Assembly (NCBI GenBank): GCA_013348725.1
Contig: CP054689.1
Coordinates: 2,600,501-2,664,500, forward strand
Reading direction: 5' to 3'
Origin: Ectothiorhodospiraceae bacterium 2226
GTDB lineage: Bacteria; Pseudomonadota; Gammaproteobacteria; GCA-013348725
Length of the DNA: 64,000 nt
Made by a program: the position numbers and the translations under genes. Position 1 is the stretch's first letter. Every line of letters starts with the position of its first letter. The notes beneath the pieces were generated by a model that had not been told where the DNA came from, made no database searches, and worked only from the letters and a program-made list of their open reading frames with translations. Shown here piece after piece: positions 32,775-56,315 of this stretch.

Positions 32775-33305
32775 ATGCGGAACTTCTGTCGGGGCGCCAT
32801 CGCTGCCCTCCTCATCGCGTGTCTGCCCGGTGTCGTATCGGCCGACGAAGTGTCACGGCAACAGATCGAGGGGCTCGACGAGCAGGTGCAGGAGATCAAA
32901 TCCGAAGCCCTGGGTATCGCGGCGGCTCTGAGCCGACTCGAGGAAAAGTTGTTGTATCCGTCGGATACCCAGCTTTCCCTGTTCGTCTCGCTCGCCAAGG
33001 GCGATAACTTCCGACTGGATGCGGTCGAGGTACGGGTGGACGGCAAGGTGGTGGCCAATCACCTGTACACCTACAAGGAGTTGGAGGCCCTACGTGAGGG
33101 CGGCGTGCAGCGCCTGCACACCGGTAACGTGCGCATTGGGCAGCACGACTTGCAGATCACGATGATCGGCAAGTCGCCGGGCGGTAGCGACTATCGACAC
33201 TCGGCAGAGTTCAAGATCAACAAGGACGTGGGGCCCAAGCTCGTCGAGTTCATTCTGGCGGGGCCAGGGGTGAACACCCAGAGCATTCGCAAGAAAGGCT
33301 GGTAG
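32775..33305 (+). CDS. Exported protein, first gene of the trans-envelope operon
   Basis: 176 residues from ATG 32775. A signal peptide ends VVSA near residue 23. A short coiled coil follows (QQIEGLDEQVQEIKSEALG), then a beta-rich domain (LSLFVSLAKGDNFRLDAVEVRVDG, split here as LSLFVSLAKGDNF and RLDAVEVRVDG). I know no named family. It ends 3 bp before the next gene's ATG, so it belongs to the operon of TPR proteins and ExbB/ExbD channel subunits. It is probably a periplasmic component of that machine. Confidence 0.82.
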   Translation: MRNFCRGAIAALLIACLPGVVSADEVSRQQIEGLDEQVQEIKSEALGIAAALSRLEEKLLYPSDTQLSLFVSLAKGDNFRLDAVEVRVDGKVVANHLYTYKELEALREGGVQRLHTGNVRIGQHDLQITMIGKSPGGSDYRHSAEFKINKDVGPKLVEFILAGPGVNTQSIRKKGW

Positions 33306-33308
33306 TTC

Positions 33309-35258
33309 ATGCTCCGCCCACTCCTGTGGCTGGTCGGCGCCGGGTTTGCGAGCGCCTCGCTCGCCGCCGATGCCCCGTTCGGCGAGCTGCGGGATCTCTA
33401 CTTCGGCGAGGCCTTGTACTACGCCCAGCAGGGCGACTACTTCGATGCCATCGCGCGGCTCGACGCCGAACTCGGGCAGCACTACGGCGTGGACGAGCCC
33501 GAACTCGACAGCTTCCACGCGCATGTCGGCCACGCCGAATTCTCGGTGGGCGATTTCGAGCTTTCCTACCGCATGCACCATCGCGCCGGGCGCGCCATCG
33601 AGGCGGTGCTCGAGGCCAATGTGCCCGACGAGGTGCGCAACGAGGCCGCCTACCGCCTCGCGCGTATCCATTTCCAGAAGGCCCAGCCGGTCAACGCACT
33701 GCACGCGCTGTCGCGCATCCAAGGTCAGGTGCCGGAGCGGATCCGCGATGACCTGGCCTTTCTTCGCGCCCAGGTACATATGGCTACCGGGCGCTTCGGT
33801 GCGGCGGCGGGGATTCTGGAGTCCCTGCAGGAGTCCCCGGGCTACACCGGGTTTGCCGGCTACAACCACGGCGTCGCGCTGCTGCGCGATGGTAAGGAGA
33901 GCGCCGGCTTTCGGGCGCTAGACCGGGCAGGCCAAGTGCGCGGCGCCCGCGCGGAGACCTTGGCCATCCGGGACAAGGCCAATCTGGTGCTCGGCAGTCG
34001 GCTGCTCGATGCCGACCAGCCCGAGGAAGCGAAACAGTACTTCGACCGCGTGCGCATGAGCGGTCCGTTTTCGAACAAGGCCCTGCTCGGTTCCGGCTGG
34101 GCGGATGCGGCGGGCGAGCGTTTCGAGCGCGCGCTGGTGCCCTGGACCATCCTCGCGCAGCGCAACGTCACCGACGAGCATGTGCAGGAAGCCTTGCTTG
34201 CCGTGCCGTACGCGTACGGTCGCTTGGGCGTTTACGGCAACGCCGCGCTCGGCTACGGTCGCGCGCTGGATGCGTTCGGCACGGAGCTCGACAAGCTGGA
34301 GCGTTCCATCACGAGCATTCGGGAAGGAAAGTTCCTGGAAGCCATGGTGCGCGAGGAGATCAAGCAGGACAGCAACTGGATGCTTAAATTGCGCAGCCTG
34401 CCGGAGACGCCCGAGACGTATTACTTGATGGAGCTGATGGCCTCGCACGATTTCCAGTCCTCGCTAAAGAACTACCTGGATCTCGACGCGCTGGCCAAGC
34501 GGATCGCGGTGTGGGCACAGAGTTTGGACGCGTATGAAGACCTTATCGATGCGCGGCGGCGCTATTACGAGCCCGTGCTGCCCGCGATCGATTACGACTT
34601 TCGGCGGCTCGATTCGCGCATGCGCCTGCGTATGGAACAGCGCGATCGACTCGAGTCACGCCTGCAGGCGATGTTGATCGCGCCGCGGCCCGAGCTGCTC
34701 GCCACGGCCGCCGAGCGGGTGATCGGCGAGGAGTTGCACGCGCTCGAACAACGCGCCCTACGCGCGGGTGGCGATCCGGCGACGCTGCACCGAATCCGTC
34801 GCCTGAAGGGCGTCATGCACTGGCGTATCCACACCGAGTACGACCAGCGCCTGACGGAGGCTCACACCAACCTGCGCGCGCTCGACGGCGTGGTGGCCGA
34901 CCTTAAACGCCAGTACACCTCGTTCGTGCGTACGCGTCAGGCCGCCACGCAGAGCTATCAAGGCTACGAAGGCACCATCAGCCAGTTGCGCATGCGGGTG
35001 CGTGAGGCCGACGCACGCGTGCAGGTGCTGATCGCGCGTCAGGGCCACATGCTGGAAGCGATGGCCATACACGAACTCGAACGCCGCCGTGCGCGTCTCG
35101 AAGAGTTCCAGGTGAATGCGCGCTTCGCCATGGCCGACAGCTACGACCGGGCCATCCGCGTGGAGGCCGAGCGGGCGGTGGAGGCGCACGGGGTGAGTGC
35201 GCAGCCGGCGGAGCCTGCCGATGAGTCGGCGCCCACTCCCGCCGAGGCGGCGCACTGA
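33309..35258 (+). CDS. Exported TPR and coiled-coil protein
   Basis: 649 residues. A signal peptide ends SLAA near residue 20. The N-terminal half is TPR-like (FGEALYYAQQGDYFDAIARL, AAYRLARIHFQKAQPVNALH). The part from about residue 430 is a long heptad-rich coiled coil containing RRRLDSRMRL-type charge patterns and RMRVREADARVQVLIARQ. The last 30 residues are Ala/Glu/Pro-rich. It starts 3 bp after the previous stop and its own stop overlaps the next start (ATGA). It is predicted to be periplasmic and, by context, to be a scaffold of the machine. Confidence 0.85.
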   Translation: MLRPLLWLVGAGFASASLAADAPFGELRDLYFGEALYYAQQGDYFDAIARLDAELGQHYGVDEPELDSFHAHVGHAEFSVGDFELSYRMHHRAGRAIEAVLEANVPDEVRNEAAYRLARIHFQKAQPVNALHALSRIQGQVPERIRDDLAFLRAQVHMATGRFGAAAGILESLQESPGYTGFAGYNHGVALLRDGKESAGFRALDRAGQVRGARAETLAIRDKANLVLGSRLLDADQPEEAKQYFDRVRMSGPFSNKALLGSGWADAAGERFERALVPWTILAQRNVTDEHVQEALLAVPYAYGRLGVYGNAALGYGRALDAFGTELDKLERSITSIREGKFLEAMVREEIKQDSNWMLKLRSLPETPETYYLMELMASHDFQSSLKNYLDLDALAKRIAVWAQSLDAYEDLIDARRRYYEPVLPAIDYDFRRLDSRMRLRMEQRDRLESRLQAMLIAPRPELLATAAERVIGEELHALEQRALRAGGDPATLHRIRRLKGVMHWRIHTEYDQRLTEAHTNLRALDGVVADLKRQYTSFVRTRQAATQSYQGYEGTISQLRMRVREADARVQVLIARQGHMLEAMAIHELERRRARLEEFQVNARFAMADSYDRAIRVEAERAVEAHGVSAQPAEPADESAPTPAEAAH

Positions 35259-38200
35259 TGAAGCGGCTCCGCCTCCTCATCCTGCTCACGCCGGCGCTGG
35301 CCTCCTGCGCGGTGTCCAGTGGCGGCGATACGCTTGCGCAACTGCGCGACGTGAAGTTCGAGATCAAGGAAGAGGCGATCGAGGGCGGGCTGGAAAGGGC
35401 GATGGCCAGCTACCAGCGCTTTCTGGAGGAGACGCCCGAGTCGGCGATGACGCCGGAGGCCATCCGCCGGCTCGCCGACCTGAAGATCGAGGCAGAGTAC
35501 GGTTTCGCGCACGCCGGGGGTGCGGGTACCGGCGCAGGTACGGGGGCGAGTGCGGCGGCGCGCGCCGCCGCGCCGGCGCCGGAGCGGGCGGCGCGCGTCG
35601 GGCCGGCGCCGGAGCGCGCATCGCCCAGTGGTGTCGCGGCGGCGATGACCGAGAGCGAGCAGGCGTTCGAGGACCGCGCGACCGCCTCCGATCTCATTGC
35701 GACCACCGGACCGGAAGGCGACGCACCGCTGCCCGAAGGCCTCGATGGGGACCTGGAGAACGCCGCCGCGCGCGACGCGATCGCGCTCTACCAGGACCTG
35801 CTGGACAAGTATCCCCTGTACGAGCGCAACGACCAGGTGCTGTATCAAATGTCGCGCGCCCACGCCGAGATCGGCGAGGTCGAGACGGCCATGGACATCA
35901 TGACGCGCATCGTCGAGGAGTACCCGCGTTCGCGCTATCTGGATGAGGTGCAGTTCCGGCGCGGTGAGTACTTCTACACGCGTAACCGGTACCTGGACGC
36001 CGAGGATGCGTATCAGTCGGTCGTGCGCCAGGGCGTGAGTTCGGCCTATTACGAGATGGCGCTCTACAAGCTCGGGTGGGTGTTCTACAAGCAGGACCTC
36101 TACGAGGATGCCCTGCACCGCTTCGTCGGCGTGCTCGATTACAAAGTCTCGGTCGGCTACGACTTCGAACAGACCGAGAACACGACCGAGAAGACGCGCG
36201 TCGACGACACCTACCGGGTGATCAGTCTCAGCTTCTCGAACATCGGCGGCCCGGAGGCGGTACGCGACTACTTCAAGCGTCACGGCGCGCGCTCCTATGA
36301 GGACGGGGTCTATAGCAGTCTCGGCGAGTATTACCTCTCGAAGCGCCGCTTCAGCGATGCCGCCGGTGCGTACAAGACCTTCGTCGGGCTCTACCCGCTG
36401 CACCGCAAGTCGCCGCACTTCCACATGCGCGTGGTGGAGATCTACGAGCACGGCAACTTCCCGCGCCTCGTGCTGGCGGAGAAGAAGGAGTTCGCGCAGG
36501 TCTATGGCGTGCGCGCGAACTACTGGCGCCACTTCGACCTCGCCGCTCGCCCGGAAGTCGTCGCGTACCTGAAGGGCAACCTCAAGGACTTGGCCAACCA
36601 CTACCACGCGTTGTACCAGGATGAGCGTTTCGCGGACGACCAGCCCGAGAACTACGCCGAGGCTTTGCTGTGGTACCGCGAGTTCCTGGGCTCCTTCCCC
36701 GAGGGGGACGAGGCGCCGGCGATCAACTACCAGCTGGCCGAACTGCAACTGGAGCATGGCGCCTTCGGCGAGGCGGCGCGGGAGTTCGAGCGCACCGCGT
36801 ATGACTATCCGCTCCACGCGCAGGCGCCGGCGGCCGGCTATGCGGCGGTGTATGCCTATCAGCAGCAGGTTGAGGTGGTTCCTCCGGCGCGCCTCGGTTT
36901 GGCCAAGCGCGAATTGATCCGCAGCTCGCTGAAGTTCGTGGACACCTTCCCGCGTCACGAGCAGGCGCCGACCGTCCTCGGGGCGGCCGCGGACGATTTA
37001 TACGAATTGAAGGACTTCGAGGGCGCGGCTAACGCGGGGCGCAAGTTGATCGCGAGCTATCCCAGCACCACGCCGGCCCTGCTGCGCTCGGCCTGGATCG
37101 TGGTGGCGCACGCCTCCTTCGACATGGGCGCCTATGAGGATGCCGAGCAGGCCTATGCGCAGGTATTGCGCCGCACCGATCTCGCCGACGATTCGCGGCC
37201 CGGCTTCATCGACAACCTGGCGGCCTCGATCTACAAGCAGGGCGAGCAGGCCAACGTGCTCGGGGACTACCGTACGGCCGCCAACCATTTCCTGCGCATC
37301 GGCCGCGCGGCGCCCACGTCCAAGTTCCGCGCCGGCGCCGAGTACGACGCCTCGGTGGCGCTGATCAGACTGGAGGATTGGAGCGCGGCCGCCAGCGTGC
37401 TGGTGGACTTCCGCGAGCGCTACCCGGGTCACGAGCTGCAGCCCGACGTGACCAACAAACTGGCGCATGTGTACCGCGAGGCGGGACAACTCGCGTCCGC
37501 CGCCGCCGAGTACGAGCGCGTGGAGCGCGAAACGGACGACGACGAGATCCGTCGCGGCGCCTTGCTGGTCGCGGCTGACCTGTACGAGGAGGCGGGCGAC
37601 GACCGCAGTGCGCTGCGGGTCTACCGGCGGTACGTGGACTTCTTCCCGCGGCCGCTGGAGCTCGCGCTGGAGACCCGCTTCAAGATCGCCACGCTCCACA
37701 AGGACAACAACGAGCAGGCGCCCTACCTGGAGCAGTTGCGCGCCATCGTGACCGCGGACGCCGGGGCGGGCGCCGAGCGCACCGACCGCACGCGTTACCT
37801 CGGCGCCACGTCGGCGCTGGTGTTGGCCGAGCCGTTGTATGAGCGCTTCGCGGCCATTCGTCTCGTGCATCCGTTCGAGAAGCACCTGCAGGACAAGCAG
37901 CAGGCCATGCGCGCCGCGCTGAACGGTTTTGCAGATCTCACGCATTACGAAGTCGGCGAGGTGACTGCGGCGGCGACCTTCTATATGGCCGAGGTCTACT
38001 ACGGCTTCGCGCGCGCGCTGATCGATTCGGAGCGCCCCGCCAACCTCAGCGCACTGGAACTCGAGGAGTTCGAGTTGGCGATCGAGGAACAGGCCTTCCC
38101 GTTCGAGGACAAGGCCATCGAGGTGCACGAAAAGAATCTGGAGCTGATGGGCATCGGGATCTACAACGCGTGGATCGATCGCAGCCTGGGCAAGCTCGCG

Positions 38201-38371
38201 GTACTGGTGCCGGTGCGCTACGCGAAACCCGAAGAGAGCAGCGGGTTCGTGGCGAGCTTGGGGCCGTTCCGTTATGGCGCCGATGTCGAGGAGGACGCGG
38301 CGGAAGCGGTGGAGGCCGAGGACGGCGCCTCGCATGCCGAGGCGGATGGGCAAGGGAGGGGCGCGAGCTGA
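35258..38371 (+). CDS. Large TPR lipoprotein
   Basis: 1037 residues. Lipoprotein signal with lipobox LASC, Cys17. A Gly/Ala/Pro-rich linker runs near residues 85-130, then many TPR units across the protein (for example IALYQDLLDKYPLYERNDQV, AEDAYQSVVRQGVSSAYYEM, ADLYEEAGDDRSALRVYRRY). Asp is not at the +2 position, so outer-membrane sorting is expected. It overlaps both neighbours by four or one bases (ATGA). Large TPR proteins of this sort appear in Glt-type machinery of Myxococcus; homology to a particular Glt protein is not claimed. Confidence 0.88.
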   Translation: MKRLRLLILLTPALASCAVSSGGDTLAQLRDVKFEIKEEAIEGGLERAMASYQRFLEETPESAMTPEAIRRLADLKIEAEYGFAHAGGAGTGAGTGASAAARAAAPAPERAARVGPAPERASPSGVAAAMTESEQAFEDRATASDLIATTGPEGDAPLPEGLDGDLENAAARDAIALYQDLLDKYPLYERNDQVLYQMSRAHAEIGEVETAMDIMTRIVEEYPRSRYLDEVQFRRGEYFYTRNRYLDAEDAYQSVVRQGVSSAYYEMALYKLGWVFYKQDLYEDALHRFVGVLDYKVSVGYDFEQTENTTEKTRVDDTYRVISLSFSNIGGPEAVRDYFKRHGARSYEDGVYSSLGEYYLSKRRFSDAAGAYKTFVGLYPLHRKSPHFHMRVVEIYEHGNFPRLVLAEKKEFAQVYGVRANYWRHFDLAARPEVVAYLKGNLKDLANHYHALYQDERFADDQPENYAEALLWYREFLGSFPEGDEAPAINYQLAELQLEHGAFGEAAREFERTAYDYPLHAQAPAAGYAAVYAYQQQVEVVPPARLGLAKRELIRSSLKFVDTFPRHEQAPTVLGAAADDLYELKDFEGAANAGRKLIASYPSTTPALLRSAWIVVAHASFDMGAYEDAEQAYAQVLRRTDLADDSRPGFIDNLAASIYKQGEQANVLGDYRTAANHFLRIGRAAPTSKFRAGAEYDASVALIRLEDWSAAASVLVDFRERYPGHELQPDVTNKLAHVYREAGQLASAAAEYERVERETDDDEIRRGALLVAADLYEEAGDDRSALRVYRRYVDFFPRPLELALETRFKIATLHKDNNEQAPYLEQLRAIVTADAGAGAERTDRTRYLGATSALVLAEPLYERFAAIRLVHPFEKHLQDKQQAMRAALNGFADLTHYEVGEVTAAATFYMAEVYYGFARALIDSERPANLSALELEEFELAIEEQAFPFEDKAIEVHEKNLELMGIGIYNAWIDRSLGKLAVLVPVRYAKPEESSGFVASLGPFRYGADVEEDAAEAVEAEDGASHAEADGQGRGAS

Positions 38372-39021
38372 TGGCTTCGACATTCGGTGCGCAAAGGGGT
38401 TTGTCAGTCGACGTGCCGCTGGCGTGGCACCACTGGGCACACGCGGCGATCGCCGCATGCCTCCTCGGCGGGAGCGTTCTGCTGGCGGGCTGCGCAGCCG
38501 GCGGCCCCGCGCAGCCGGCGGCGTCCCGGGCCGCCGGGGATGCGCCGATCGATCCCGCCGCGCAGGCGGAGTTTGTCGTCGCCGTGCAGCTGCTGGAAGC
38601 CGAGCGTTACACGCAAGGCATCGCACGCTTGGAGAGCGTGGCCGAGCGCGCGCCGAGCGCGGCGGCGCCGCACGTCAACCTCGCCATGGCCTATCTGCGC
38701 CTCGATAAGCACCAGGCGGCCGAAGAGAGCTTCCAGAAGGCGCTGGCGCTCGAGCCGGAGCATCCCGTGGCCAACAACGAGTACGGCGTGCTGTTGCGTA
38801 AGCAGGGGCGTTTCGACGAGGCGCGGCGTCACTACCAAACCGCGCTCGCGGCGTATCCGGACTTCCATCCGGCGCGCAGGAATCTGGGCATTCTCTGTGA
38901 CCTTTACCTGAACGACGCGCGCTGCGCGCTGGAGCACTACCAGGCGTATGCGAAAGCGGTGCCCGGGGATGAAACCGTCAAGCTTTGGGTGGTCGACCTG
39001 AAGCGTCGAGTAGGGGAGTGA
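38371..39021 (+). CDS. TPR lipoprotein (GltE-like in layout)
   Basis: 216 residues from ATG 38371, whose A is shared with the previous TGA. The signal is long, with an n-region of about 25 residues and lipobox LLAGC near residue 45. About four TPR units follow (APHVNLAMAYLRLDKHQAAEES, NNEYGVLLRKQGRFDEAR, ARRNLGILCDLYLNDARCAL; each shown truncated). It is a small TPR lipoprotein located next to the channel genes. In Myxococcus the Glt system has a comparable lipoprotein, so this analogy is noted as inference only. Confidence 0.85.
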   Translation: MASTFGAQRGLSVDVPLAWHHWAHAAIAACLLGGSVLLAGCAAGGPAQPAASRAAGDAPIDPAAQAEFVVAVQLLEAERYTQGIARLESVAERAPSAAAPHVNLAMAYLRLDKHQAAEESFQKALALEPEHPVANNEYGVLLRKQGRFDEARRHYQTALAAYPDFHPARRNLGILCDLYLNDARCALEHYQAYAKAVPGDETVKLWVVDLKRRVGE

Positions 39022-39025
39022 AGCC

Positions 39026-39298
39026 ATGTACGCACGTGCGCTGTGCTTAATCGTCGGCCTGCTGGGCGCGGGCCTCGCGGTGGGCGAAGAGGAGGCGAAG
39101 GAGTTGTCGGGTATTTCTCTGATCGGCAATGACGAAGCCCCGAAGTCGCTCTACATCGTGCCGTGGAAGAGCTCGGAGATGGGCGGCGAGCAGGGGCTCT
39201 CCGCCAACCTGATGGATGACGGAACGGACCCCGTGGACAAGGAGGTCTTCATGCGCCAGTTGGAATTTTACGAGATCAGCAGCCGCGATGGGCTCTGA
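39026..39298 (+). CDS. Small exported protein of the operon
   Basis: 90 residues with a GGGGAG Shine-Dalgarno. A signal peptide covers residues 1-19 (LIVGLLGAGLAVG). The mature part is acidic, with a LYIVPWKSSEMGG core and a C-terminal VFMRQLEFYEISSRDGL. I do not recognise a named family. It sits between the TPR lipoprotein and the ExbB-like gene and is likely a periplasmic accessory of the channel. Confidence 0.75.
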   Translation: MYARALCLIVGLLGAGLAVGEEEAKELSGISLIGNDEAPKSLYIVPWKSSEMGGEQGLSANLMDDGTDPVDKEVFMRQLEFYEISSRDGL

Positions 39299-39336
39299 GG
39301 CTCAACGTGAAGCACCTGAACGATGAGGACTAAGTG

Positions 39337-40038
39337 ATGGGTTTTATCGACACAGTGGTGGGATTCATTCAGGACGGGGGCAAGTTCATGTACCCCATTT
39401 TGATCGTGGGCGCGGTCGGTGGCGCGATTGCGACCGAGCGTTTCATCACCCTTATGCGCGTACGCGCCGCGAACCGCAGCCTTTGGGAGCGGATGCAGCC
39501 CGTGCTGGTCAAGGGCGATTTCTCCGCGGCGAGAGCGATGACCGAGAAGGATAGCTCCACGGTCGGTCAGCTGCTGCAGCTCGGCCTTGCGCGCCAGGGC
39601 GCGGTGCGGCGTCGCGAGGATATCGAGATCGCGATGGAGGAGGGCATGATGGAGATCATCCCGCAGCTCGAGAAGCGCACGGCCTACGTGGCCCTATTCG
39701 CCAGCATCGCGACCCTGCTGGGCCTGCTGGGAACCATCATGGGCCTGATCGAAGCCTTCAGCGCGGTGGCCAATGCCAACCCGGCCGAGAAGGCGGACCT
39801 CTTGTCGGCGAGTATTTCGGTGGCCATGAATACCACCGCGTTCGGTCTCATGGTGGCCATCCCGCTGTTGATCACGCACGCGTACCTGAACTCGCGCACG
39901 GGCGAGATCGTCGACAGTCTGGAGATGGCGTCGGTCAAGGCGCTCAACGCGATCACCGGCAGCACGCCGCGTGTGCACGACGTGAAGAGCGCGACGCCGG
40001 ATGACGACATGGATCCGGTGCCGGCGCCCGCGAGCTGA
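39337..40038 (+). CDS. MotA/TolQ/ExbB-family proton channel protein (AglR-like)
   Basis: 233 residues from ATG 39337; a GTG one codon earlier is possible, and GAGG lies at 39324-39327. Three TM helices: about 17-36 (YPILIVGAVGGAIATERF), 127-150 (LFASIATLLGLLGTIMGLIE) and 166-190 (MNTTAFGLMVAIPLLI). The TLLGLLGT motif and the TTAFGLMVAIP motif are the conserved core of the family. The pentameric ExbB-type ring drives a partner dimer with the proton gradient. It is followed by two ExbD/TolR-type genes, matching the one-plus-two set of AglRQS. Confidence 0.93.
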   Translation: MGFIDTVVGFIQDGGKFMYPILIVGAVGGAIATERFITLMRVRAANRSLWERMQPVLVKGDFSAARAMTEKDSSTVGQLLQLGLARQGAVRRREDIEIAMEEGMMEIIPQLEKRTAYVALFASIATLLGLLGTIMGLIEAFSAVANANPAEKADLLSASISVAMNTTAFGLMVAIPLLITHAYLNSRTGEIVDSLEMASVKALNAITGSTPRVHDVKSATPDDDMDPVPAPAS

Positions 40039-40040
40039 TC

Positions 40041-40529
40041 ATGCGACGCAAACACCACTACAGGCGAAAAAAAGAGGCGCCCGAACTGGACGTTACCACC
40101 TTCCTTAACCTGATGGTGGTGTTGATCCCGTTCCTGCTGGTGACCGCGGTGTTCTCTCGCATCACGATCCAGGAGTTGAACATGCCCGAGGCGGCCGGCG
40201 GCAGTCAGGTGGACAAGCCGCTGGTGACGATCGAGGTGATCGTGCGTGAGCGGGCGCTGGAAGTCGGGGATGGGAAAAGCGTGGTGCTCTCGATTCCTAA
40301 ACGCGACGACGGTTACGACCTGCCGAAGCTTTCCGAGTTTCTCATCAAGCTCAAGGAGCGCTACGAGGAGAAGGAGGATGCGACGGTGCTCCTGGAGCCG
40401 GACATCGCTTACGAGGACATGATCCACGTAATGGATGCGGTCAAGGTCGCAGAAGTCCGGATCGAAGGGGAGGAAGAGGTGCGGACCCTCGTCCTGTTCC
40501 CGGAGATTTCCATAGGGGATGCCCCATGA
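40041..40529 (+). CDS. ExbD/TolR-family protein with Asn at the channel Asp position
   Basis: 162 residues with one TM near 18-40 (TTFLNLMVVLIPFLLVTAVF) and a periplasmic domain. In canonical ExbD/TolR the sequence is N-V-T-P-x-x-D, the Asp being the proton-carrying residue. Here the aligned sequence is DVTTFLN, so Asn replaces the Asp. The partner gene keeps the Asp. The start lies three bases after the ExbB-like stop, and the end overlaps the next gene by four bases. Confidence 0.92.
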   Translation: MRRKHHYRRKKEAPELDVTTFLNLMVVLIPFLLVTAVFSRITIQELNMPEAAGGSQVDKPLVTIEVIVRERALEVGDGKSVVLSIPKRDDGYDLPKLSEFLIKLKERYEEKEDATVLLEPDIAYEDMIHVMDAVKVAEVRIEGEEEVRTLVLFPEISIGDAP

Positions 40530-41023
40530 AGGATACCCGCCGCATGCATCGCATGGCCCGCGCAAAGAAGCGGGCCAAGGGGAATGCACTCAACCTGACC
40601 TCGCTGATGGATGTGTTCACCATTCTGGTGTTCTTCCTGCTGGTGAACCAATCCGCCACCGAGTTGCTCGAGCCGCCCAAGGAGATCGTGCTGCCGGATT
40701 CCGTCGTCGAGGCCAAGCCGCGCCAGACGGTGATCATCCTGGTGAGCGCCCACGAGGTGCTGGTGCAGGGTGAGCCGGTCATTACCACCGCCGAGGTCGA
40801 AGAGGCGGAGGGCGACATCCAGGCGATCATCGACCGGCTGAAACGCATTCAGGAGAGCGCCATCGGCATCCACACGGCGGCCGTGGCGGAGAGCCAGGAG
40901 GTGACGATCCTCGCCGACCGGGAGATCCCCTTCAAGGTGCTGCGTAGGCTGATGTCGACCAGTACCAGCGCGGGGTATACGCGCATCTCCCTGGCCGTGA
41001 TTCAGAAAGCTTCGCAAAGCTAG
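40526..41023 (+). CDS. ExbD/TolR-family protein with intact channel Asp
   Basis: 165 residues, overlapping the previous gene by ATGA. A basic N-terminus (RRMHRMARAKKRAKG) leads into a TM near 25-45 (LNLTSLMDVFTILVFFLLV). The Asp in SLMDV is at the position of the essential ExbD/TolR proton-path residue. A periplasmic ExbD-like domain follows (TVIILVSAHEVLVQGEPV). With the previous subunit it could form a mixed dimer inside the ExbB-type ring. Confidence 0.93.
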   Translation: MKDTRRMHRMARAKKRAKGNALNLTSLMDVFTILVFFLLVNQSATELLEPPKEIVLPDSVVEAKPRQTVIILVSAHEVLVQGEPVITTAEVEEAEGDIQAIIDRLKRIQESAIGIHTAAVAESQEVTILADREIPFKVLRRLMSTSTSAGYTRISLAVIQKASQS

Positions 41024-41032
41024 GCGGACCAC

Positions 41033-42406: not shown

Positions 42407-42412
42407 GCAGGC

Positions 42413-42453: not shown

Positions 42454-42491
42454 ATTTGAATGGAACGCAGCGGCGTTTACCGTCGCCGGTC

Positions 42492-48700: not shown

Positions 48701-51095
48701 CGTGCAGGTGAACGCGGGCGTGCCCACCGGCACGGTCATCAGCAACCAGGGCCTGGTGCGCTCGAAAGAACAACTGGACGAGCCCACCGACGCCGACGGC
48801 AACGCCGCCAACGGCCATCAGCCCACCGAGATCGTGGTGGGCGACGCCCAGCAGCTGGCCATCACCAAAGAGGTGTTCGTGCTCGGGGGCGCCGCGCTGC
48901 CGGGCGCCACCCTCGAGTACGTGGTCCGCGCCACTAACATCGGCAGCGTACCGGCCCACGACGTGGTCATTACCGACGACCTGAACGCGCCCGTGCCGGG
49001 GCAGCTCAGCTATGTGGCGGGATCGGCCACGCTGGACGGATTGACCGCGGGCGTGAGCTACGCCGCGCCGGTGCTGACCGGCGACTACGGCGCGACCTAC
49101 GGGCCGCTCGCACCGGGCGCCTCGACGGTGCTGCGCTTCCGCGCGCAGCTCGACGCCGGCCTCGCCGAGGGCGAGACGGTGACCAATATCGCCGAGGTGG
49201 CGTGGAACTCGCCGGTGCAGACCGCCACCGCGAGTGTCTCGATCGAGGTGGGCGGCGTCCCCGGCGCGGCGAGCCTGAACGGTCGCGTGTGGCACGATGC
49301 CAACTTCGACGCCGTGGCCGACGACCAGGAGCGCGCGCTGGCCGACTGGCGCGTCGAGGTGTACCGCAACAATCAGCTGCTCGGCAGCGTCACCACCGAC
49401 GCCGACGGCGCCTACCGCGTGAACGGGCTGGCCCCCAACGACGCCGGCAGCCCCTATGAGCTGCGTTTTCGCGCGCCGGGGGCGGGGCCCAACACCGCGC
49501 TGCTCGGCGAGACCCACTCGCCGTTCACCGACGGGCTGCACCGCATCACCGACATCGTGGTCGGCTCCGGCAGCAACACCCAGAACCTGAACCTGCCGAT
49601 CACCCCCAACGGCGTGATCTACGACTCGGTCATGCGCACGCCGATCGCGGGCGCCACGGTGACGATGCTGCGCGGCGGGGCGCCGCTGCCGGCGGCCTGC
49701 TTCGACGACCCGGCGCAGCAGGGCCAGCGCACACCCGCGCAGGGCTACTACAAGTTCGACATCAACTTCAGCGACCCGGCCTGTCCGGCGGGCGGGGACT
49801 ACACCCTGCGCGTGACCCCGCCGCCGAGCGGTTACACCGCCTGGCCGTCGCGCATCATCCCGCCGACCAGCGATGAGAGCACCGCCGCGTTCTCACTGGC
49901 GAGCTGTCTGGGTAGCGCGGACGACGCCGTCAGCGCCACGCCCGATCACTGCGAGGTGCAGAGCTCGGAGTACGCCCCGGCCCTGAGTATCGCCGCGCGC
50001 ACGGCGGGTACCACGCACCACGTGCACTTGCGCCTGAGCGACGGGCAGGTCCCGGGCGAGAGCCAGGCCTTCAACAACCACATCGCGGTCGACCCCGAGC
50101 TCGACACCGCGGTGACCATCGCCAAGAGCGCGTCGCTGGTCAACGTCAGCCGCGGGCATCACGTGCCCTATACCATCACGCTGCGCAACACCTTGGGTGT
50201 CAGTCTCGCCGACCTCAGCATCGTCGACACCTTCCCGCCGGGCTTCAAATACGTGGAGGGCTCGAGTCGCGTCGATGGTCAGCCGGTGGAGCCGACCATG
50301 GACGGCCTGCGCCTGATCTGGAGCGACCTCGACCTCGCGCCGGAGGCGCAGCACACGATTCAGATGCTGTTCATCGTGGGCGCCGCCGTGCCCGAGGGCG
50401 AGCACGTGAACCGGGCGCGCGTGGTCAACACGCGGACCGGCGAGAGCGCCTCGGGCGAGGCCACCGCCACCGTGCGCGTGGTGCCCGATCCGACCTTCGA
50501 CTGCACCGACGTGATCGGCAAGGTGTTCGACGACGCCAACCTCGACGGGGTGCAGAACCCGGGCGAGAAGGGGCTGGCGGGCGTGCGCGTGGTGACCGCG
50601 CGCGGCTTGATCGCGGAAACCGACGAACACGGTCGCTTCCATATCACCTGCGCGCTGACGCCCAACGAGACGCGCGGCAGCAACTTCATCCTCAAGCTCG
50701 ACGATCGCAGCCTGCCGAGCGGCTATCGCGTGACCACCGAGAATCCGCGGGTGCAGCGCGCCACGCGCGGCAAGATGATGCGCTTCAACTTCGGCGCCAC
50801 GCTGCACCGCGTGGTCCGCATCGACGTCTCCGACGCCGTGTTCGAACCGGGCTCCACCGAGATGCGCGTGCAGTGGCGCCCGAGCATGGACCTGCTGCTG
50901 GACGAACTGCGCAAGTCGCCGTCGGTGGTGCGGGTCTCGTACCTGGCGGACGTGGAGCAGCCGGCGCTGGTGAAGCGGCGCCTGGCCACCCTCAAGCGGG
51001 AACTCACCGCGCGCTGGCAGGAGCTGGAGTGCTGCTACCCGCTCGCGGTGGAGACGGAAACCTTCTGGCGGCGCGGCGCGCCACCGGGACGCTAG
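42753..51095 (+). CDS. Giant secreted DUF11 / SdrD-like repeat protein
   Basis: About 2780 residues from ATG 42753 (ATGs at 42762 and 42771 and a GTG at 42723 are alternatives). A signal peptide ends AFAA near residue 48. About 13 DUF11-type Ig-like repeats follow up to residue 2170, many opening with a K-x-V and G-D-x-L-x-Y-T pattern (LVVSKDG, LTVDKTVAPQ, VDISKVVAPD, FEVWKTSQD). Then comes an SdrD/Cna-B-like domain near 2174 (NGRVWHDANFDAVADD), another insert, a DUF11 near 2450, and a second SdrD-like domain near 2586 (GKVFDDANLDGVQNPGEKGL). A compact C-terminal region (about 2690-2780) follows. No LPXTG, PEP-CTERM or terminal barrel signal is visible. The AT-rich 230 bp before it probably hold its promoter. 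Confidence 0.9.
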   Translation: MRGMRAMRRDLERLATCRAAATLRARAWLHWLALALLYLAAAPAFAADKFCSDYEGGIIDGNVVGNLTQITIDRDCTLQNFQPPNPLTATINFQTNDDSIYLIIFDNVTYDGNMACANIDHRIWFSNSSSHRIREDCQSLFIPVETIAKENPEGQNTASIGVPFTYTLTLPSMNWPEGDPSANDLHTVTLWDDLTATGADLTYVGINAYYKGSGTPVTLVPEDDPSAFGGVWTPKNLSYKPFPLIYAGDQIVVEMTVVLDDTPNNVPGTTFVNTAKWWFGRLIEGDFYDPLPGEWGVTDPMTIVAPNLVVSKDGPDVLGGLNLGEWGEFAVDVWNDGTGDAWNVTLIDRLPSGSSNEFHGGMCDMVPEVTGVTLAGAPLSLGTDYTRTYNTATCELSLTLLDAGGPIGPNEHLLVSYRTKLDADSENGAMLTNVAGAAQWFNAGGTADARHAFSCEITDGTVGIADCQDAHEVMVALSGQFFEKTVENLTRGEAPPSMAVAGDRLRYTLRLQTTDEGLYNARFFDEIDALNAPRAFEPGTLSVGALPAGATDHSDPGSGVLDIRNLNLEAWSELQIQFEVQLVSSLNDGDEVFNQAALWVGDVPVAVSDDPTINGQANPAIEGDEDPTRVLIYEPMPPTPPLKSVQPSTATIGEEVSYVITVPGSPRNVHLYDVVVADTLDPALAFLSATVRRDGLILSVDTGQSGQTLSWDVGTIPAGQQVEIEVSVRVRNLDEVRAGVIVDNVASYTYVEDGSRISGGSSPSAALRIVEPALTVDKTVAPQSAPLAGDLLTYTLTFDAAGGQDHSAAFDLAIEDVLSLGLRYEPGSTTIGGFSAPDPDLIGGDGVSAAQTLSWSAQSNIDIPAGGQLVLTYQVRVLDSVAPGQLLSNDVTGYWTSLKGPSPHERTGADCPAGLNDYCTTASTSLTVADSVSLSKTIAADSWDSDGSTADDATVRIGDTVTYELGLAVQEGTLYGVAVEDVLPAGMELVSVDAIGSPSGTVFEYTLTSQPAPGATGTLRWEFGDIVNRPSGDGTPIDLLVIGYTARVVEEVGLVHLAQSTLTNIATVSYHAPNGEPMPFDESRMRDSAELTLLQPLIGAISKIDLDGAGRSGTGTQHDPYLITDIVNDTVRFQLEACNDGLAPAYGVVLTDRLARELDETSLSAPLVSIGGSALAPDAYTYSPPAGRGGEMRIELDTPVSVGACVSVDYQIGFHHDTPANQLWHNRAAVEEYGSLPGGTGQPYLAVGPAEVWMSNAFDAVGPSKVLTAPAGGEATIGELVEFTLTVPGEPVNGALNDVVVTDVLAPAFAYVNAVVSLNGTVLPIDAATDGQAVSWLIPFIPSGQQAEIELTVRVANTADAEAGPVTNYAAYTHVVDGTTMTGGSSAPAILEIVEPRVDISKVVAPDAPATAGDVLSYTVALTARSGEGYTDARDLVLVDTLSPGLVYLGGAQIDGATVEPVVTVDDATGAQTLTWAPRDIAAGDTVTVTYDVRVPDDVAFGDELSNTAVARWTSLPGESEHERTGSGEPVWNDYYAEASTTVPVVAPTLVVQKSVVNVSTGQDPGSNARPGDTLRYSIHLQNTSPVALASFALRDEVDHLNDPPVFVAGSLTLVSVPAGADTAATDPHGGAHGTGLLDVRGLRLDPQGGAGDSVTVVFEVTLAPVITSGTVVLNQGEVIAFGERLALTDDPAVAGDEAPTRTVINSAPVFEVWKTSQDISDDPAQLRAGDPLRYTITVQNIGDEDALNAVLRDQLPAYTRYVPNSTTLNGQPVPDASGGVLPLQDGIAIHTPADPRQGVMPADPEATGTYVATITFDVIIDADVFDGTVIANQGFVTGDGAGSGPVPQKPSDDPNTPVLDDPTRDVVGNVPLLAAHKTVELLVDDGSPGIVDPGDVLRYTIAISNRGAAHATEVVFIDAVPANTSYVPDSVRLNGLPVGQPDGGVSPLVAGIPVSSSDLTPPLPGAGQGTISAGGVAVVTFDVQVNAGVPTGTVISNQGLVRSKEQLDEPTDADGNAANGHQPTEIVVGDAQQLAITKEVFVLGGAALPGATLEYVVRATNIGSVPAHDVVITDDLNAPVPGQLSYVAGSATLDGLTAGVSYAAPVLTGDYGATYGPLAPGASTVLRFRAQLDAGLAEGETVTNIAEVAWNSPVQTATASVSIEVGGVPGAASLNGRVWHDANFDAVADDQERALADWRVEVYRNNQLLGSVTTDADGAYRVNGLAPNDAGSPYELRFRAPGAGPNTALLGETHSPFTDGLHRITDIVVGSGSNTQNLNLPITPNGVIYDSVMRTPIAGATVTMLRGGAPLPAACFDDPAQQGQRTPAQGYYKFDINFSDPACPAGGDYTLRVTPPPSGYTAWPSRIIPPTSDESTAAFSLASCLGSADDAVSATPDHCEVQSSEYAPALSIAARTAGTTHHVHLRLSDGQVPGESQAFNNHIAVDPELDTAVTIAKSASLVNVSRGHHVPYTITLRNTLGVSLADLSIVDTFPPGFKYVEGSSRVDGQPVEPTMDGLRLIWSDLDLAPEAQHTIQMLFIVGAAVPEGEHVNRARVVNTRTGESASGEATATVRVVPDPTFDCTDVIGKVFDDANLDGVQNPGEKGLAGVRVVTARGLIAETDEHGRFHITCALTPNETRGSNFILKLDDRSLPSGYRVTTENPRVQRATRGKMMRFNFGATLHRVVRIDVSDAVFEPGSTEMRVQWRPSMDLLLDELRKSPSVVRVSYLADVEQPALVKRRLATLKRELTARWQELECCYPLAVETETFWRRGAPPGR

Positions 51096-51164
51096 CGGAT
51101 TCGGCGGCTCCAGGGGGGAGCGGCCGCGGGCCCGTAAAGAAAGAACGACAAAAGAACCCACACG

Positions 51165-54100
51165 ATGACGCTAGATGTCAGGCATAGAAAGCAGGAAACC
51201 GTCGCCGCGGGTAGCCGCGTCGCGCGTCGCTGTGCCCGCGCGCGTGCCTCGCGGCGCGCTTGGTTACCCTTGCTCTCGCTGCTCCTCGTGTGGCCTGCGC
51301 ACGCGGAGAGTAGCGCTGCACGGTGGGGCATGGTGGAGCCCGCGCCACTCGGCGAGGTGACCGAGCGGCAGGTCGACCCTGACGAGCGCTCGACGCCCTG
51401 GCTCCAGGACCCCGCGCTGTACGAGGACTCGTATGGCGATCGCATCGAGAATCAGCAGGTACTGGAGCGCGCGGTCGAGACGCGCAAGCTGCAGAATGTC
51501 GTGCCGCCCATTCGCTTTGCCTCGGGACAGGCGGAGATCCCCGATGGCTACGTCGAGCTGTTGCGCGCGGCCCTGGATCAGATGAAGCACCGCGTGAACG
51601 TTCGGCTGCACTTCGTCGGCCACAGCGACAACGTGCCGTTGCGCGGCGCGCTGGAGGAGCAGTACGGCGACAACCTGGGGCTGTCGCGCGAGCGTGCCGG
51701 CACCACCGCCGAGTACTTCCAGCGGGCGCTCAGCCTGCCGCCTGAGTCGATCTCCTACGAGGGCGTCGGCGAGGCCCAGCCGGTGGCGAGCAACGATACC
51801 GAGGCCGGGCGTGCGCAGAACCGCCGAGTGGAGGTCGAGGTCTGGTACGACGAGGTGAGCGAGGTGCTCGCCGAGCGCGAGGTGGTGGTGGCGCGCGAGC
51901 TCACGCGTGTGCCGGTCTGTCGCGTGGAAACGGTGTGCATGCTCAAGTACAAGGAGGGGCATGCCAAGCGCGCGCGCATCAGGAACCTCCTGCCGCCGCT
52001 GCGTTACGACGCGGACGCCGGCGAGATCCCGCCGCAATACCTCGAGCAGCTGCGCGAGGCGCTGCACAACCTGCGGGACAAGCAGAACGTGGTGGTGAAG
52101 TTTATCGGTTACACCGATGACATTCCGCTGACCGGGCGCACCGCCCGCATCTATGGTACGCACGAGGGACTCTCCAGCGCCCGCGCCCGACGCGTCGCCC
52201 TCGCGGTGCAGGACGCGCTCGGCCTGCCGACCGCCGCCGTGGACAGCGACGGTCGAGGCGCGACCGCGCCCCTCGCTTCGAACGAAACCGAGCAGGGGCG
52301 GTCGCTCAACCGTCGCGTCGAGGTCGAGTTCTGGCACGACGACCCGTTGGCGGAACTGCCCGACGAGCCGCAGCTGTGTCCGGAGTCGGCCGCCGCCGAG
52401 ACGGTGACCGTGGTGTACGACCCGCCGAGCGGGGCGATCCGGCCGATCTATTTCGACGGCGGACGCGCGCAGGTGCCGCCGGGCTACTTCGATCGCCTCG
52501 GCCGACTGCTCGAAGAGGTGCGCCACAAGGCCAACCCGCGCCTGCGCTTCATTGGCTACACCAACAACGAACGGCTGGATCGCCGCGTGGCGATGGTGTA
52601 CGGCGATGACATCGGCCTGTCGGCGGCGCGCGCCACACGCATGATGCAGCAGGCGACGGCACACCTTGGGCTGCCGCCCGAGCGGGCGGAGACCGAGGGC
52701 CGCGGCTACGTGCAGACCGAGGACGTGGTCAACGCGGGCTTCGTCGAGGCGGAGCTTGCGCGGGTGGAAGTGCAGGTGGTCTATGACGAACTGGCGGCGC
52801 TCGATGACGCCGACGCCATGGACATCACCCGCTTGACGCGCGCGGTGGCGCCCAAGAACCCGTTCGCGCTGAATTCCATGCGCATCACCGTGGACGGCAA
52901 GCCGCTCAGCGATCCGAACAAGAGCATCGCCGACGTGCAGCGCTGTACCGACGTCGCCCTGGACGCGGCCAACATCGCGTTCAAGTTCGACAACCTGGCG
53001 TTCTCGCCGCGGCTCAACGTGACGGCCTGGCCGAGCACGCTGCGCTACCGCGATGACGCCGATACCGAGTATCCCGAGAACCTGGTGCAGTTCCGGCGCT
53101 ACACCAACTACGCGAGTTTTATCGCTGAGTCGGAGGTGCGCATTTTCCGCGCCGAGGACTCCACGCGCGCCGAGCCGCTCGCGGTCGTGCCCCTGGATGC
53201 GGATGGGCGCGGCGAATGGGAGGCCGAGTTCGACCGCGTGGGTGCCGCGGGCCTGGACCTTCAGTACCTGGTGCGGGTGTATGACGCCGATGGCAACTTC
53301 GACGAGACGCAGCCGCAGCCGCTGTGGGTCGTCGAGGCGCTGGCCGACGAGCCCGAGGCCTACGATCCCCAGCGCGAGGTGCTGGTCGGCTACGGCGAGA
53401 GCCGTCTCGCGGTGCGGAACATTCCCTTGAACGGCGGCACCATCCGCGTGGTGGGGGCGGACATCCCGAGCGGGCACTCCGTGTGGGTGGCCGGGCGGGC
53501 ATTGCCGCTCAGCGAGGATCGCGCGTTCGTGACCGAGGAGATACTGCCCGCCGGGATGCATACGGTGGAGGTGGCCGTGCTCGACCAAGCGGGCAACGGC
53601 GAGTTGTTCCTGCGCGACCTGGAGCTCAAGAAGAGCGACTGGTTCTACGTCGGTATCGCCGATCTCACCGTGTCGGCGCACGATACCCGCGGCCCGGCGC
53701 GCCTGCTCGGCGACGCGCAGTACGACGATGACCTGGCGGTGGACGGGCGCCTCGCGTTCTATACCAAGGGCAAGTTCGGCGATCGCTGGCGCCTGACCGC
53801 GAGCGCCGATACGCGCGAAGGGCCGGTCGAGGACATCTTCAGCAACTTCATGGACAAGTCGCCGGATGCGCTGTTTCGGCGCATCGACCCGGATTACTAC
53901 TATCCGACCTTCGGCGACGACGGCACGGTGACCGAGGACGCGCCGACCATGGGCAAGTTCTACGCGCGGCTCGAGCGCGACCAGAACCACGCCTTGTGGG
54001 GCAGCTTCAAGGTCGGGTATCTCGGCAACAGCCTCGCGCACGTGGATCGCAGCCTGTACGGCGCGAATCTGCATTACCGCACCCAGGACACCACCAGCTT

Positions 54101-56315
54101 CGGCGAAGAGCGGCTGATGTTCGACGGCTTCGCGGCCGAACCCGGCACCGTGGCCGCGCGCGACGAGTTCCGCGGCACGGGCGGCTCGCTGTACTTCCTG
54201 CGCCACCGCGACATTCTAATCGGCTCCGAGCGCCTGCGGGTGGAGGTGCGCGACAAGGACTCGGGCATCGTGCTGGCGGTGAAGAATCTGCTGCCCGGTC
54301 TGGACTACGACGTGGACCACCTGCAAGGGCGGGTGATGCTGACCGAACCCTTGTCGCCCACCGCGAGCGACGACCTGCTGGTGGACAGCGGGACCGGCAG
54401 CGGCAACCCGGTGTTCCTGGTGGCGCGCTACGAATACGCGCCCGGCTTCGAGAAGCTCGACACGCTGGCCGCCGGTGGGCGCCTGCACTACTGGTTCAAC
54501 GACCACGTCAAGCTCGGCGTGACGGGCAACCGTAACGAAGAGGACGACGCCGAGAGCAGCCTGGGGGCTATCGACCTCACGCTGCGCAAGAACACCGATT
54601 CCTGGCTGCGCATCGAGGCCTCGGAGAGCACGGGCGGCGACGTCACCGCCGTGCAGTCGATCGACGGCGGCTTCGGCTTCGACCCGGTGTTCGGGCCGCA
54701 GGGTCAGGATCTGCGTGGCAGCGCCTATCGCTTGGACGCCAGCGTCGGCCTGCGCGATGTGTTCCAGGACGTGGACGGCAAGCTGACCCTGTACCACCAA
54801 AGCGTGGACGCCGGCTACTCCTCGCCCAGCGTGCGCGCCGCCACCGACACCGATCAGCACGGCGGCGCGTTGAGCATGCCGGTCACCGAGCAGGTGGGCC
54901 TACGGGTCAAGGCCGACAAGCGCAGGCAGCAGATGGGGCTGAATACCCAGGCGGTGGAGGTGGATGTCGACTACCTGCTCACCGAGCGCTGGACGCTGAG
55001 TAGCGGCGTGCGGCACGACAAGCGCACCGACCGCTCGCCGGTTGTCCCCTTGACCCAGGAGGAAGGCGAGCGCACCGATGCGGTGGTGCGCGCCGCCTAC
55101 GATTCACACGAGCGCTGGAGCGCCTACGGCTTTGCGCAGGACACCCTGAATACCACCGGCAACCGTGATCGCAACGGGCGCCTCGGTACCGGCGGCGCCT
55201 ATCGGTTCAGCGACCGCTTCCGTATGCGCGGCGAGGTCTCCGGCGGCGACCTCGGCGCGGCCGGGCAGCTCGGCACCGACTTCCTGTGGACCGACCGCAC
55301 CAACCTTTATTTGACCTACGCGCTCGAGAACGAGCGCACCGACAACGGTCTGCGCGCCCGCCGGGGCAACCTCACCTCCGGTTTCAAGACCCGCTACTCG
55401 GACAGCGCGAGCGTGTACGTCGAGGAGCGCTATACGCACGGCGACGTGCCCACCGGGCTGATGCACTCCACGGGCGTGGATCTCGCACCCACGGATCGCT
55501 GGAACTTCGGGGCCAATGTGGACGTGGGCACCCTGAAGGACCCGCAGACCAGCGCCGAGTTGCGCCGGCAGGCCTTCGGCGCGCGTGTCGGCTACGGGTT
55601 CGACGCCTTGAAGGTGGCGAGCGCCTTCGAGTACCGCGTGGACGAGATCGAGAACCCCGATACCAGCTTCGTCAAGCGCACCACCTGGCTGACGAAGAAC
55701 AGCCTGCGCTATCAGTTCTCGCCCGATTGGCGGCTGCTCGGCAAGCTGAACCACTCCGAGAGCGAGAGCTCGCAGGGCGAGTTCTACGACGGGCGCTATA
55801 CCGAGGCGGTGCTCGGCTATGCGTACCGGCCGGTCAACCACGACCGCTTGAACGCGCTGTTCAAGTACACCTACTTCTACAACCTGCCAACCGCGGACCA
55901 GGTGACGCTGAGCAATACGCCCGCGGCCTTCATCCAGAAGAGTCACATCCTCGCGGCGGACGTGCTGTATGACCTCACCGCCCGCTGGACCGTGGGCGGC
56001 AAGTACGCCTATCGCCTGGGCCAGGTCAGCCAAGACCGCGAGAATCCGGAGTTCTTCGACAGCAACGCGCACTTGTACATCCTGCGCGTGGATTGGCACT
56101 TCATCCGTCAGTGGGACGCCCTCGCGGAGTGGCGCATCCTCGATCTGCCGGATGCCGGGGACCGGCGCAGCGGGGCGCTGCTGGGCATCTACCGGCACCT
56201 CGGTCGCCACGTGAAGCTGGGGGCGGGTTACAACTTCACCGACTTCTCGGACGACCTGACCAACCTGTCCTACGACTCGCAAGGCGTGTTCGTCAATATC
56301 GTCGGTAAGTTCTAA
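51165..56315 (+). CDS. Triple-OmpA-domain outer-membrane beta-barrel protein
   Basis: 1716 residues. A long-n-region signal peptide ends PAHA near residue 46. Three OmpA-like domains lie near 114-225, 275-395 and 425-545. The first two keep the peptidoglycan-contact Asp (GHSDN, GYTDD), LSxxRA and NRRVEVE. The third has GYTNN and LARVEVQ, so the key Asp and NRR are lost. Residues about 550-820 are beta-sandwich-like. From about 821 (SDWFYVGIADLTV) to the end are repeated amphipathic strands, closing in NIVGKF with terminal Phe for BAM recognition. It starts 69 bp after the DUF11 gene, with no terminator between, so the pair is probably co-transcribed. Confidence 0.9.
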   Translation: MTLDVRHRKQETVAAGSRVARRCARARASRRAWLPLLSLLLVWPAHAESSAARWGMVEPAPLGEVTERQVDPDERSTPWLQDPALYEDSYGDRIENQQVLERAVETRKLQNVVPPIRFASGQAEIPDGYVELLRAALDQMKHRVNVRLHFVGHSDNVPLRGALEEQYGDNLGLSRERAGTTAEYFQRALSLPPESISYEGVGEAQPVASNDTEAGRAQNRRVEVEVWYDEVSEVLAEREVVVARELTRVPVCRVETVCMLKYKEGHAKRARIRNLLPPLRYDADAGEIPPQYLEQLREALHNLRDKQNVVVKFIGYTDDIPLTGRTARIYGTHEGLSSARARRVALAVQDALGLPTAAVDSDGRGATAPLASNETEQGRSLNRRVEVEFWHDDPLAELPDEPQLCPESAAAETVTVVYDPPSGAIRPIYFDGGRAQVPPGYFDRLGRLLEEVRHKANPRLRFIGYTNNERLDRRVAMVYGDDIGLSAARATRMMQQATAHLGLPPERAETEGRGYVQTEDVVNAGFVEAELARVEVQVVYDELAALDDADAMDITRLTRAVAPKNPFALNSMRITVDGKPLSDPNKSIADVQRCTDVALDAANIAFKFDNLAFSPRLNVTAWPSTLRYRDDADTEYPENLVQFRRYTNYASFIAESEVRIFRAEDSTRAEPLAVVPLDADGRGEWEAEFDRVGAAGLDLQYLVRVYDADGNFDETQPQPLWVVEALADEPEAYDPQREVLVGYGESRLAVRNIPLNGGTIRVVGADIPSGHSVWVAGRALPLSEDRAFVTEEILPAGMHTVEVAVLDQAGNGELFLRDLELKKSDWFYVGIADLTVSAHDTRGPARLLGDAQYDDDLAVDGRLAFYTKGKFGDRWRLTASADTREGPVEDIFSNFMDKSPDALFRRIDPDYYYPTFGDDGTVTEDAPTMGKFYARLERDQNHALWGSFKVGYLGNSLAHVDRSLYGANLHYRTQDTTSFGEERLMFDGFAAEPGTVAARDEFRGTGGSLYFLRHRDILIGSERLRVEVRDKDSGIVLAVKNLLPGLDYDVDHLQGRVMLTEPLSPTASDDLLVDSGTGSGNPVFLVARYEYAPGFEKLDTLAAGGRLHYWFNDHVKLGVTGNRNEEDDAESSLGAIDLTLRKNTDSWLRIEASESTGGDVTAVQSIDGGFGFDPVFGPQGQDLRGSAYRLDASVGLRDVFQDVDGKLTLYHQSVDAGYSSPSVRAATDTDQHGGALSMPVTEQVGLRVKADKRRQQMGLNTQAVEVDVDYLLTERWTLSSGVRHDKRTDRSPVVPLTQEEGERTDAVVRAAYDSHERWSAYGFAQDTLNTTGNRDRNGRLGTGGAYRFSDRFRMRGEVSGGDLGAAGQLGTDFLWTDRTNLYLTYALENERTDNGLRARRGNLTSGFKTRYSDSASVYVEERYTHGDVPTGLMHSTGVDLAPTDRWNFGANVDVGTLKDPQTSAELRRQAFGARVGYGFDALKVASAFEYRVDEIENPDTSFVKRTTWLTKNSLRYQFSPDWRLLGKLNHSESESSQGEFYDGRYTEAVLGYAYRPVNHDRLNALFKYTYFYNLPTADQVTLSNTPAAFIQKSHILAADVLYDLTARWTVGGKYAYRLGQVSQDRENPEFFDSNAHLYILRVDWHFIRQWDALAEWRILDLPDAGDRRSGALLGIYRHLGRHVKLGAGYNFTDFSDDLTNLSYDSQGVFVNIVGKF

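Follow-up and report, generated by a model that had tools for sequence, protein, structure and literature searches.

A nine-gene operon and two giant genes in one genome

We analysed a window of 64,000 nucleotides (CP054689.1, 2600501-2664500) from the complete 2.96-Mb genome of Ectothiorhodospiraceae bacterium 2226, the sole sampled species of its family and of its order. The window carries a tightly packed set of nine genes, here called A to I, on one strand (32775-42406), followed by two giant genes, one for a DUF11 repeat protein and one for a protein with three OmpA domains. The original prediction had described exactly this arrangement, and all eleven genes are present on the + strand at the following coordinates:

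32775..33305, + strand, A: exported protein of 176 residues, coiled coil and beta-sandwich; no Pfam or NCBIfam match
33309..35258, + strand, B: exported tetratricopeptide repeat (TPR)-type protein, GltC-like, 649 residues; weak match to NF033756 (GltC), E 4.5e-4
35258..38371, + strand, C: TPR lipoprotein of 1037 residues in the place of GltD; lipobox LASC, TPR/YbgF-type repeats
38401..39021, + strand, D: TPR lipoprotein of ~205 residues, GltE-like; lipobox LAGC, NF033758 (GltE) E 2.9e-9, under the cut-off
39026..39298, + strand, E: exported protein of 90 residues with no family match, kept between D and F in related loci
39337..40038, + strand, F: ExbB/TolQ/AglR-type channel subunit; PF01618, E 4e-26
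40041..40529, + strand, G: ExbD/TolR-type protein with Asn at the usual proton-binding Asp position; PF02472
40526..41023, + strand, H: ExbD/TolR-type protein with the Asp retained; PF02472
41033..42406, + strand, I: GltG-like transducer; NF033768 (AgmX/PglI tail) E 9e-17, GltG NF033760 on the tail E 4e-9
42753..51095, + strand: giant repeat protein with DUF11, isopeptide and SdrD_B repeats, 2780 residues (2790 from an upstream GTG)
51165..56315, + strand: triple-OmpA protein of 1716 residues; a linker region, then a ~900-residue C-terminal region read as an outer-membrane barrel

The intergenic gaps within the set are 3 bp (A-B), 4 bp (D-E), 38 bp (E-F), 2 bp (F-G) and 9 bp (H-I), and B overlaps C by 1 bp and G overlaps H by 4 bp (ATGA). 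Gene D has no ATG and starts at TTG 38401 or GTG 38413. Gene I and the DUF11 gene are separated by 316-346 bp, because of which the two giants are probably transcribed separately from A-I; the OmpA gene follows the DUF11 gene after 69 bp. The DUF11 gene is the only one in the source genome, and the GltC-like gene B is present there in one copy.

A relation to the AglRQS/Glt proteins of Myxococcus had been proposed for the operon, and profile comparisons support it. In a profile-profile comparison B matched Myxococcota GltC with E 2.7e-12 (probability score 97.6). Because TPR proteins resemble one another, C and D were run against the GltC profile as controls (E 3e-4 and 6e-8, respectively). 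C was assigned as the GltD counterpart by its position and TPR content; its match to PorW/SprE is at the TPR level and under the cut-off. Protein I, whose tail matches GltG, consists of a cytoplasmic coiled coil, one transmembrane segment, a Pro-rich linker and an AgmX/PglI (TonB-like) tail; an FHA domain was not found in it. In F the motifs TLLGLLGTI and NTTAFGL are near-invariant among the aligned relatives. Protein A is conserved in all 39 aligned loci; its AlphaFold2 (AF2) model has a mean predicted local distance difference test score (pLDDT) of 84, and a fold search of this model against the PDB returned no match at E<0.001. Since none of the operon proteins reaches the curated NCBIfam equivalog cut-offs for Glt proteins, we classify them by sequence as relatives of the Glt proteins, not as gliding orthologues.

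The two ExbD-type proteins differ consistently at the membrane Asp position, where all 78 aligned relatives of G carry Asn and all 75 of H carry Asp. In Myxococcus both AglQ and AglS are reported to carry Asp (PMC9389320). Among the Myxococcota trios that we compared, some were D/D (L184, L189, L192, L193) and others N/D (L185-L188, L190, L191, L194-L196). If G and H form a dimeric axle, as we infer, it would take up the proton on one side only.

The DUF11 protein contains 12 B_ant_repeat, 5 isopeptide-forming and 2 SdrD_B-type stretches. Among the related DUF11 proteins the repeat part differs strongly in length, while the C-terminal ~250 residues are conserved and 61-69% identical to those of the source protein, a pattern as expected for a surface-exposed stalk on a fixed base. 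We also considered this C-terminus as a degenerate OmpA domain; hhalign gave a probability of 7% and P 0.005, there was no Pfam match, and we do not claim it. In the second giant the OmpA domains, of the peptidoglycan-binding type, lie at residues 99-232, 259-395 and 416-544, and two of the three retain the D and R typical of peptidoglycan binding. From its sequence and its neighbours, the ~900-residue C-terminal region is predicted to be an outer-membrane barrel.

Linkage of the operon to the giant pair

A scan with F yielded 80 loci, in nearly all of which A-I are syntenic and in the same order. At 61 of them at least 1 kb of sequence lies past I, and in 48/61 the next gene, on the same strand, encodes a DUF11 protein. 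Five further loci were recognized by Pfam DUF11 or DUF7507 (L012, L068, L074, L079 and L055, the last with two open frames intervening before the DUF11 gene) and two more by the common N-terminal CELCG motif only (L008, L085). The exceptions number 6/61. Three of them (L025, L041, L065; labelled Desulfobacterota/Nitrospirota) have the order DUF11-barrel-A..I on the same strand, so that the pair lies 3' of the operon in Gammaproteobacteria and 5' of it in Desulfobacterota-type loci. The fourth, L054, ends at a contig edge; elsewhere in its genome DUF11, barrel, A and B stand in this order on a separate contig. L043 is a cut locus, and no pair was found in its genome; at L078 the operon match is weak, and the genome has two pairs elsewhere. 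L025 and L043 each have a further ExbB-type gene immediately 3' of gene I (13195-14022 and 4180-4878, respectively).

In an even sample of 370 class genomes a B homologue was present in 90. We call an operon type I if its B scores at least 490 bits, a cut set after the scores had been seen. Type I operons occurred in 12 genomes from nine families in the sample's coding, and each of these genomes has a barrel of at least 50% identity. When barrels of at least 43% identity are counted, they are found in 12/12 type I genomes versus 6/358 others (Fisher's exact P = 1.6e-18, in a test that ignores relatedness). In 8 of the 12 a single contig holds operon and barrel on the same strand at a distance of 14-25 kb; in the other 4 they are on different contigs.

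The remaining operons, which we call type II, make up the majority of genomes with homologous operons. Their B is below about 40% identical, and I is about 310 residues long versus 450. They show the same Asn in G and Asp in H. In the ten type II loci that we examined, A-I are in order and neither the DUF11 nor the barrel giant is nearby. In a phylogeny of C the nine type II rows are grouped together (SH-aLRT, the approximate likelihood-ratio support, 99), and the type I rows cluster except for L085, which stands beside type II, and L083, a long outlier. Pairs related to the DUF11/OmpA pair also exist where there is no type I operon, in five sampled genomes and one fragment; in three of these genomes (G060, G288, G318) no B gene was detected. 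The original prediction had linked the operon to the giants and proposed a gene-neighbourhood survey of that link. In type I the link held, and the barrel was present in every sampled genome with such an operon; it did not hold in most homologous operons, which are type II, and pairs occur without any operon as well. We therefore reject a link that is general to all such operons, type II being without the pair.

Type I loci were also seen in metagenome-assembled genomes (MAGs) labelled Acidobacteria, Anaerolineales and Nitrospirae (L019, L032, L025). L019 and L032 nest among gammaproteobacterial sequences on the C tree, which may reflect transfer or a binning error. In type II loci the genes 5' of A often included an ApbE flavin transferase (L132, L133, L136, L139), a DUF3570 protein (L130, L135) and a TlpA-like thioredoxin (L134, L138 and, by eye, L131). 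ApbE, DUF3570 and TlpA-like proteins are parts of a flavinylated redox cluster (PMC8238504); a link between this cluster and the motor was not found in the text of that paper.

The operon and the pair also resemble each other in their histories. Across twelve loci the distances of B and of the barrel were correlated (mirror tree, r = 0.91; 0/5000 permutations), a value that shared ancestry alone also raises. The three delta-type loci stand together inside the gammaproteobacterial ones on both the B and the barrel tree, which is consistent with the operon and the pair having moved together. Operon-linked and operon-less barrels form separate clades (100/100), and all nine operon-linked barrels have three OmpA domains. 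Of the operon-less barrels, four have a single OmpA domain and one has none.

In the source genome, the DUF11 gene directly precedes the barrel gene of this family. At L158, the type I locus of L009 (G380), the two are fused, and the DUF11 repeats, three OmpA domains and the barrel form one open frame of ~5,100 residues with no second signal peptide at the joint. Single chains with the same domain order were found elsewhere in L143 (22 DUF11 stretches, OmpA, barrel), L153 and L155. As these fusions join them in one chain, the two giants probably function as a single unit; units related to it also exist where the operon is absent. The proposal that the barrel is the outer-membrane partner of the DUF11 protein is thus supported by the conserved adjacency and by the single-chain fusion.

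Other arrangements of the pair were seen as well. In Microbulbifer sp. YPW16 two tandem DUF11-barrel pairs follow one operon (L156 4858-19001, L157 1991-19998). The pairs have 8,042 bp in common at 96.6%, their barrels score equal, and their DUF11 proteins are 57% alike over the best-aligned stretch. Microbulbifer sediminum (G384) likewise has two pairs with equal scores. Such tandem pairs suggest a base that was homogenized and a stalk that was diversified. The open frame L143/L163 (G101:C2) runs to ~11,777 codons and encodes numerous DUF11 repeats, an OmpA domain and a barrel of the same type, and in L142 (2-7738; G115:C20) the barrel stands behind Big_13 and SdrD_B repeats, not DUF11, in a genome that has a type II operon.

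A proposed motor for a surface fibre and its alternatives

Starting from the gene content, order, conservation, linkage and fusion, which are direct observations, we give an even chance to the reading that all eleven genes belong to a single functional unit, in which a type I core complex is devoted to a surface assembly encoded by two genes. In this unit F, probably as a pentamer, and the G/H pair would be the motor that turns proton flow into motion, with H alone carrying the proton-binding Asp. The TonB-like protein I and a TPR chain of B, C and D, together with A and E, would transmit the force to the outer membrane. The triple-OmpA protein would be fixed to the peptidoglycan and form a barrel across this membrane, and the DUF11 protein would be a long fibre at the surface, docked to the barrel protein by its conserved C-terminal domain. 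The motor would most likely move, tension or retract the assembled fibre. A more specific proposal is tentative at best: that the type I core represents a class of its own among surface motors, used by proteobacteria that do not glide and built with a D/N-asymmetric ExbD pair, which moves or reels a giant isopeptide/DUF11 fibre in a barrel clamped to peptidoglycan.

Could the motor instead drive the export of the giant DUF11 protein, with the OmpA barrel as the route across the outer membrane, by analogy with the type IX secretion system (T9SS), where GldLM is the motor and SprA the translocon? The parts list resembles that of T9SS (a motor, a periplasmic TPR lipoprotein, a very large outer-membrane protein and a giant cargo), the ~900-residue C-terminal region is large, and the barrel gene always adjoins the putative cargo gene. 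We nevertheless consider such a secretion machine somewhat unlikely. DUF11/barrel pairs persist in G060, G288 and G318, where no B gene was detected, so that the machine is probably not required for arrival at the surface. Such pairs without an operon speak against a role mainly in export and make moving or tensioning the likelier function, though not decisively. In addition, single-chain DUF11-OmpA-barrel proteins exist, and there is no sequence link to T9SS parts: the PorW/SprE match of C stays at the sub-cut-off TPR level, and profiles revealed no relation to SprA. An envelope tether appears less probable still. Here a Tol-Pal-like force would place or release the triple-OmpA anchors, and the DUF11 protein would be a passive coat or a periplasmic spacer. 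This would fit the three OmpA domains of operon-linked barrels versus one or none elsewhere, the D and R retained in 2/3 of these domains, and the YbgF/CpoB-type repeats in C. Against it, three other ExbB-type genes in the genome are candidates for Tol/Ton roles, and isopeptide and DUF11 repeats of variable number suggest surface exposure. That the giants and the operon are merely neighbours co-inherited by chance is highly improbable. Even though the 316-bp gap probably separates two transcripts and the operon and the pair also occur apart, we reject chance linkage on the neighbourhood survey, the 370-genome test, the two gene orders, which span many families and several phyla, the congruent trees, and the fact that the operon-linked barrels are their own clade with extra OmpA domains.

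Several points weigh against the reading of a motor that acts on an assembled fibre. The barrels without an operon belong to a diverged subfamily, in which OmpA domains are fewer; export of the operon-linked pair might therefore still depend on the motor. The surface location and the fibre shape of the DUF11 protein are putative, and the protein may lie in the periplasm. The AF2 model of the barrel, built with 7 sequences, has a pLDDT of 31 and does not confirm the fold, and a profile search against the PDB gave neither a solved relative nor a SprA-like match. L085 has the operon and the giant, and no barrel was found in its MAG. To these we add the type I cut, chosen with the scores in hand.

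Comparison with known systems

The original prediction had presented the operon as a new machine. This part does not stand, as the core complex was already described in 2011 (Luciano et al., PMC3169522). According to the available text of that paper, the core (Group B) comprises gltC, D, E and G, aglR, Q and S and one extra gene in one cluster; it was found in Gammaproteobacteria, Geobacter and Fibrobacter as an operon of bacteria that do not glide, no function was ascribed to it, and gliding in Myxococcus is derived from it. Wartel et al. 2013 called it a possible basal transport machinery (PMC3858216). Our operon shares the parts list (ExbB, two ExbD, GltG and homologues of GltC, GltD and GltE in one region), the single-operon arrangement and, as far as the available text of PMC3169522 goes, horizontal transfer between Gamma- and Deltaproteobacteria. 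For the extra gene, which has no Myxococcales homologue, A and E are both candidates, and neither matches a family. In contrast, the available main text of PMC3169522 contains no DUF11/OmpA-barrel partner and no type I/II split. What appears to be new is the co-inherited partner module with its two gene orders, the triple OmpA domains of operon-linked barrels, and the division into types I and II; we found no paper in the open-licence literature that ties the core operon to DUF11/OmpA, and an earlier mention elsewhere is possible.

Like the Agl-Glt gliding and Agl-Nfs spore-coat machines of Myxococcus (PMC3858216 and the available text of PMC3169522), the operon combines an ExbB and two-ExbD motor with a GltG-type TonB-like tail and GltC/D/E-type TPR proteins, and in both cases the motor goes with exchangeable surface modules. 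Unlike Agl-Glt, it is a single operon, its GltG-like protein has no FHA domain, one ExbD lacks the Asp that AglQ and AglS are both reported to possess (PMC9389320), and the DUF11/barrel module takes the place of the gliding one. None of the Group A genes (gltA, B, F, H, I, J, K) is in the operon, the rest of the genome not having been searched for each. With Tol-Pal and TonB-ExbBD it has in common the ExbB/ExbD motor, a Pro-rich TonB-like transducer, OmpA-type peptidoglycan domains and a YbgF-type TPR protein; it differs in having two ExbD genes and a dedicated giant surface partner. There is no TolB or Pal among the operon proteins, and the TolQ/TolR equivalog cut-offs are not reached. The fused versions recall autotransporters (type V) in having an N-terminal passenger and a C-terminal barrel in one chain, whereas here passenger and barrel are mostly encoded by two genes, are separated by OmpA domains and come with a motor.

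The T9SS and gliding apparatus of Bacteroidota (GldLM, SprA, SprB) likewise unites a proton motor, a very large outer-membrane protein and a giant surface protein. Our system has no detected sequence relation to it, its motor is of the ExbBD type with two different ExbDs, and its barrel protein has OmpA domains. Membership in T9SS was rejected, as none of the components considered (SprA, PorV, GldK/L/M/N, C-terminal sorting domain) reaches the cut-off on the window proteins, not every part having been sought in the genome as a whole. Since 2011 the ancestral Glt core has been known as a conserved envelope machine with no function ascribed to it. The co-inherited partner gives a proposal that can be tested where the host is culturable, as with Microbulbifer. 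The division into types I and II, which differ in their partner modules, supports the idea of the motor as a general-purpose drive whose outer-membrane modules can be exchanged. If our proposal is true, the function that the ancestral Glt core has been missing would be to move a fibre, and the type I assembly would join Agl-Glt and SprB/T9SS as a third kind of motor-driven surface adhesin.

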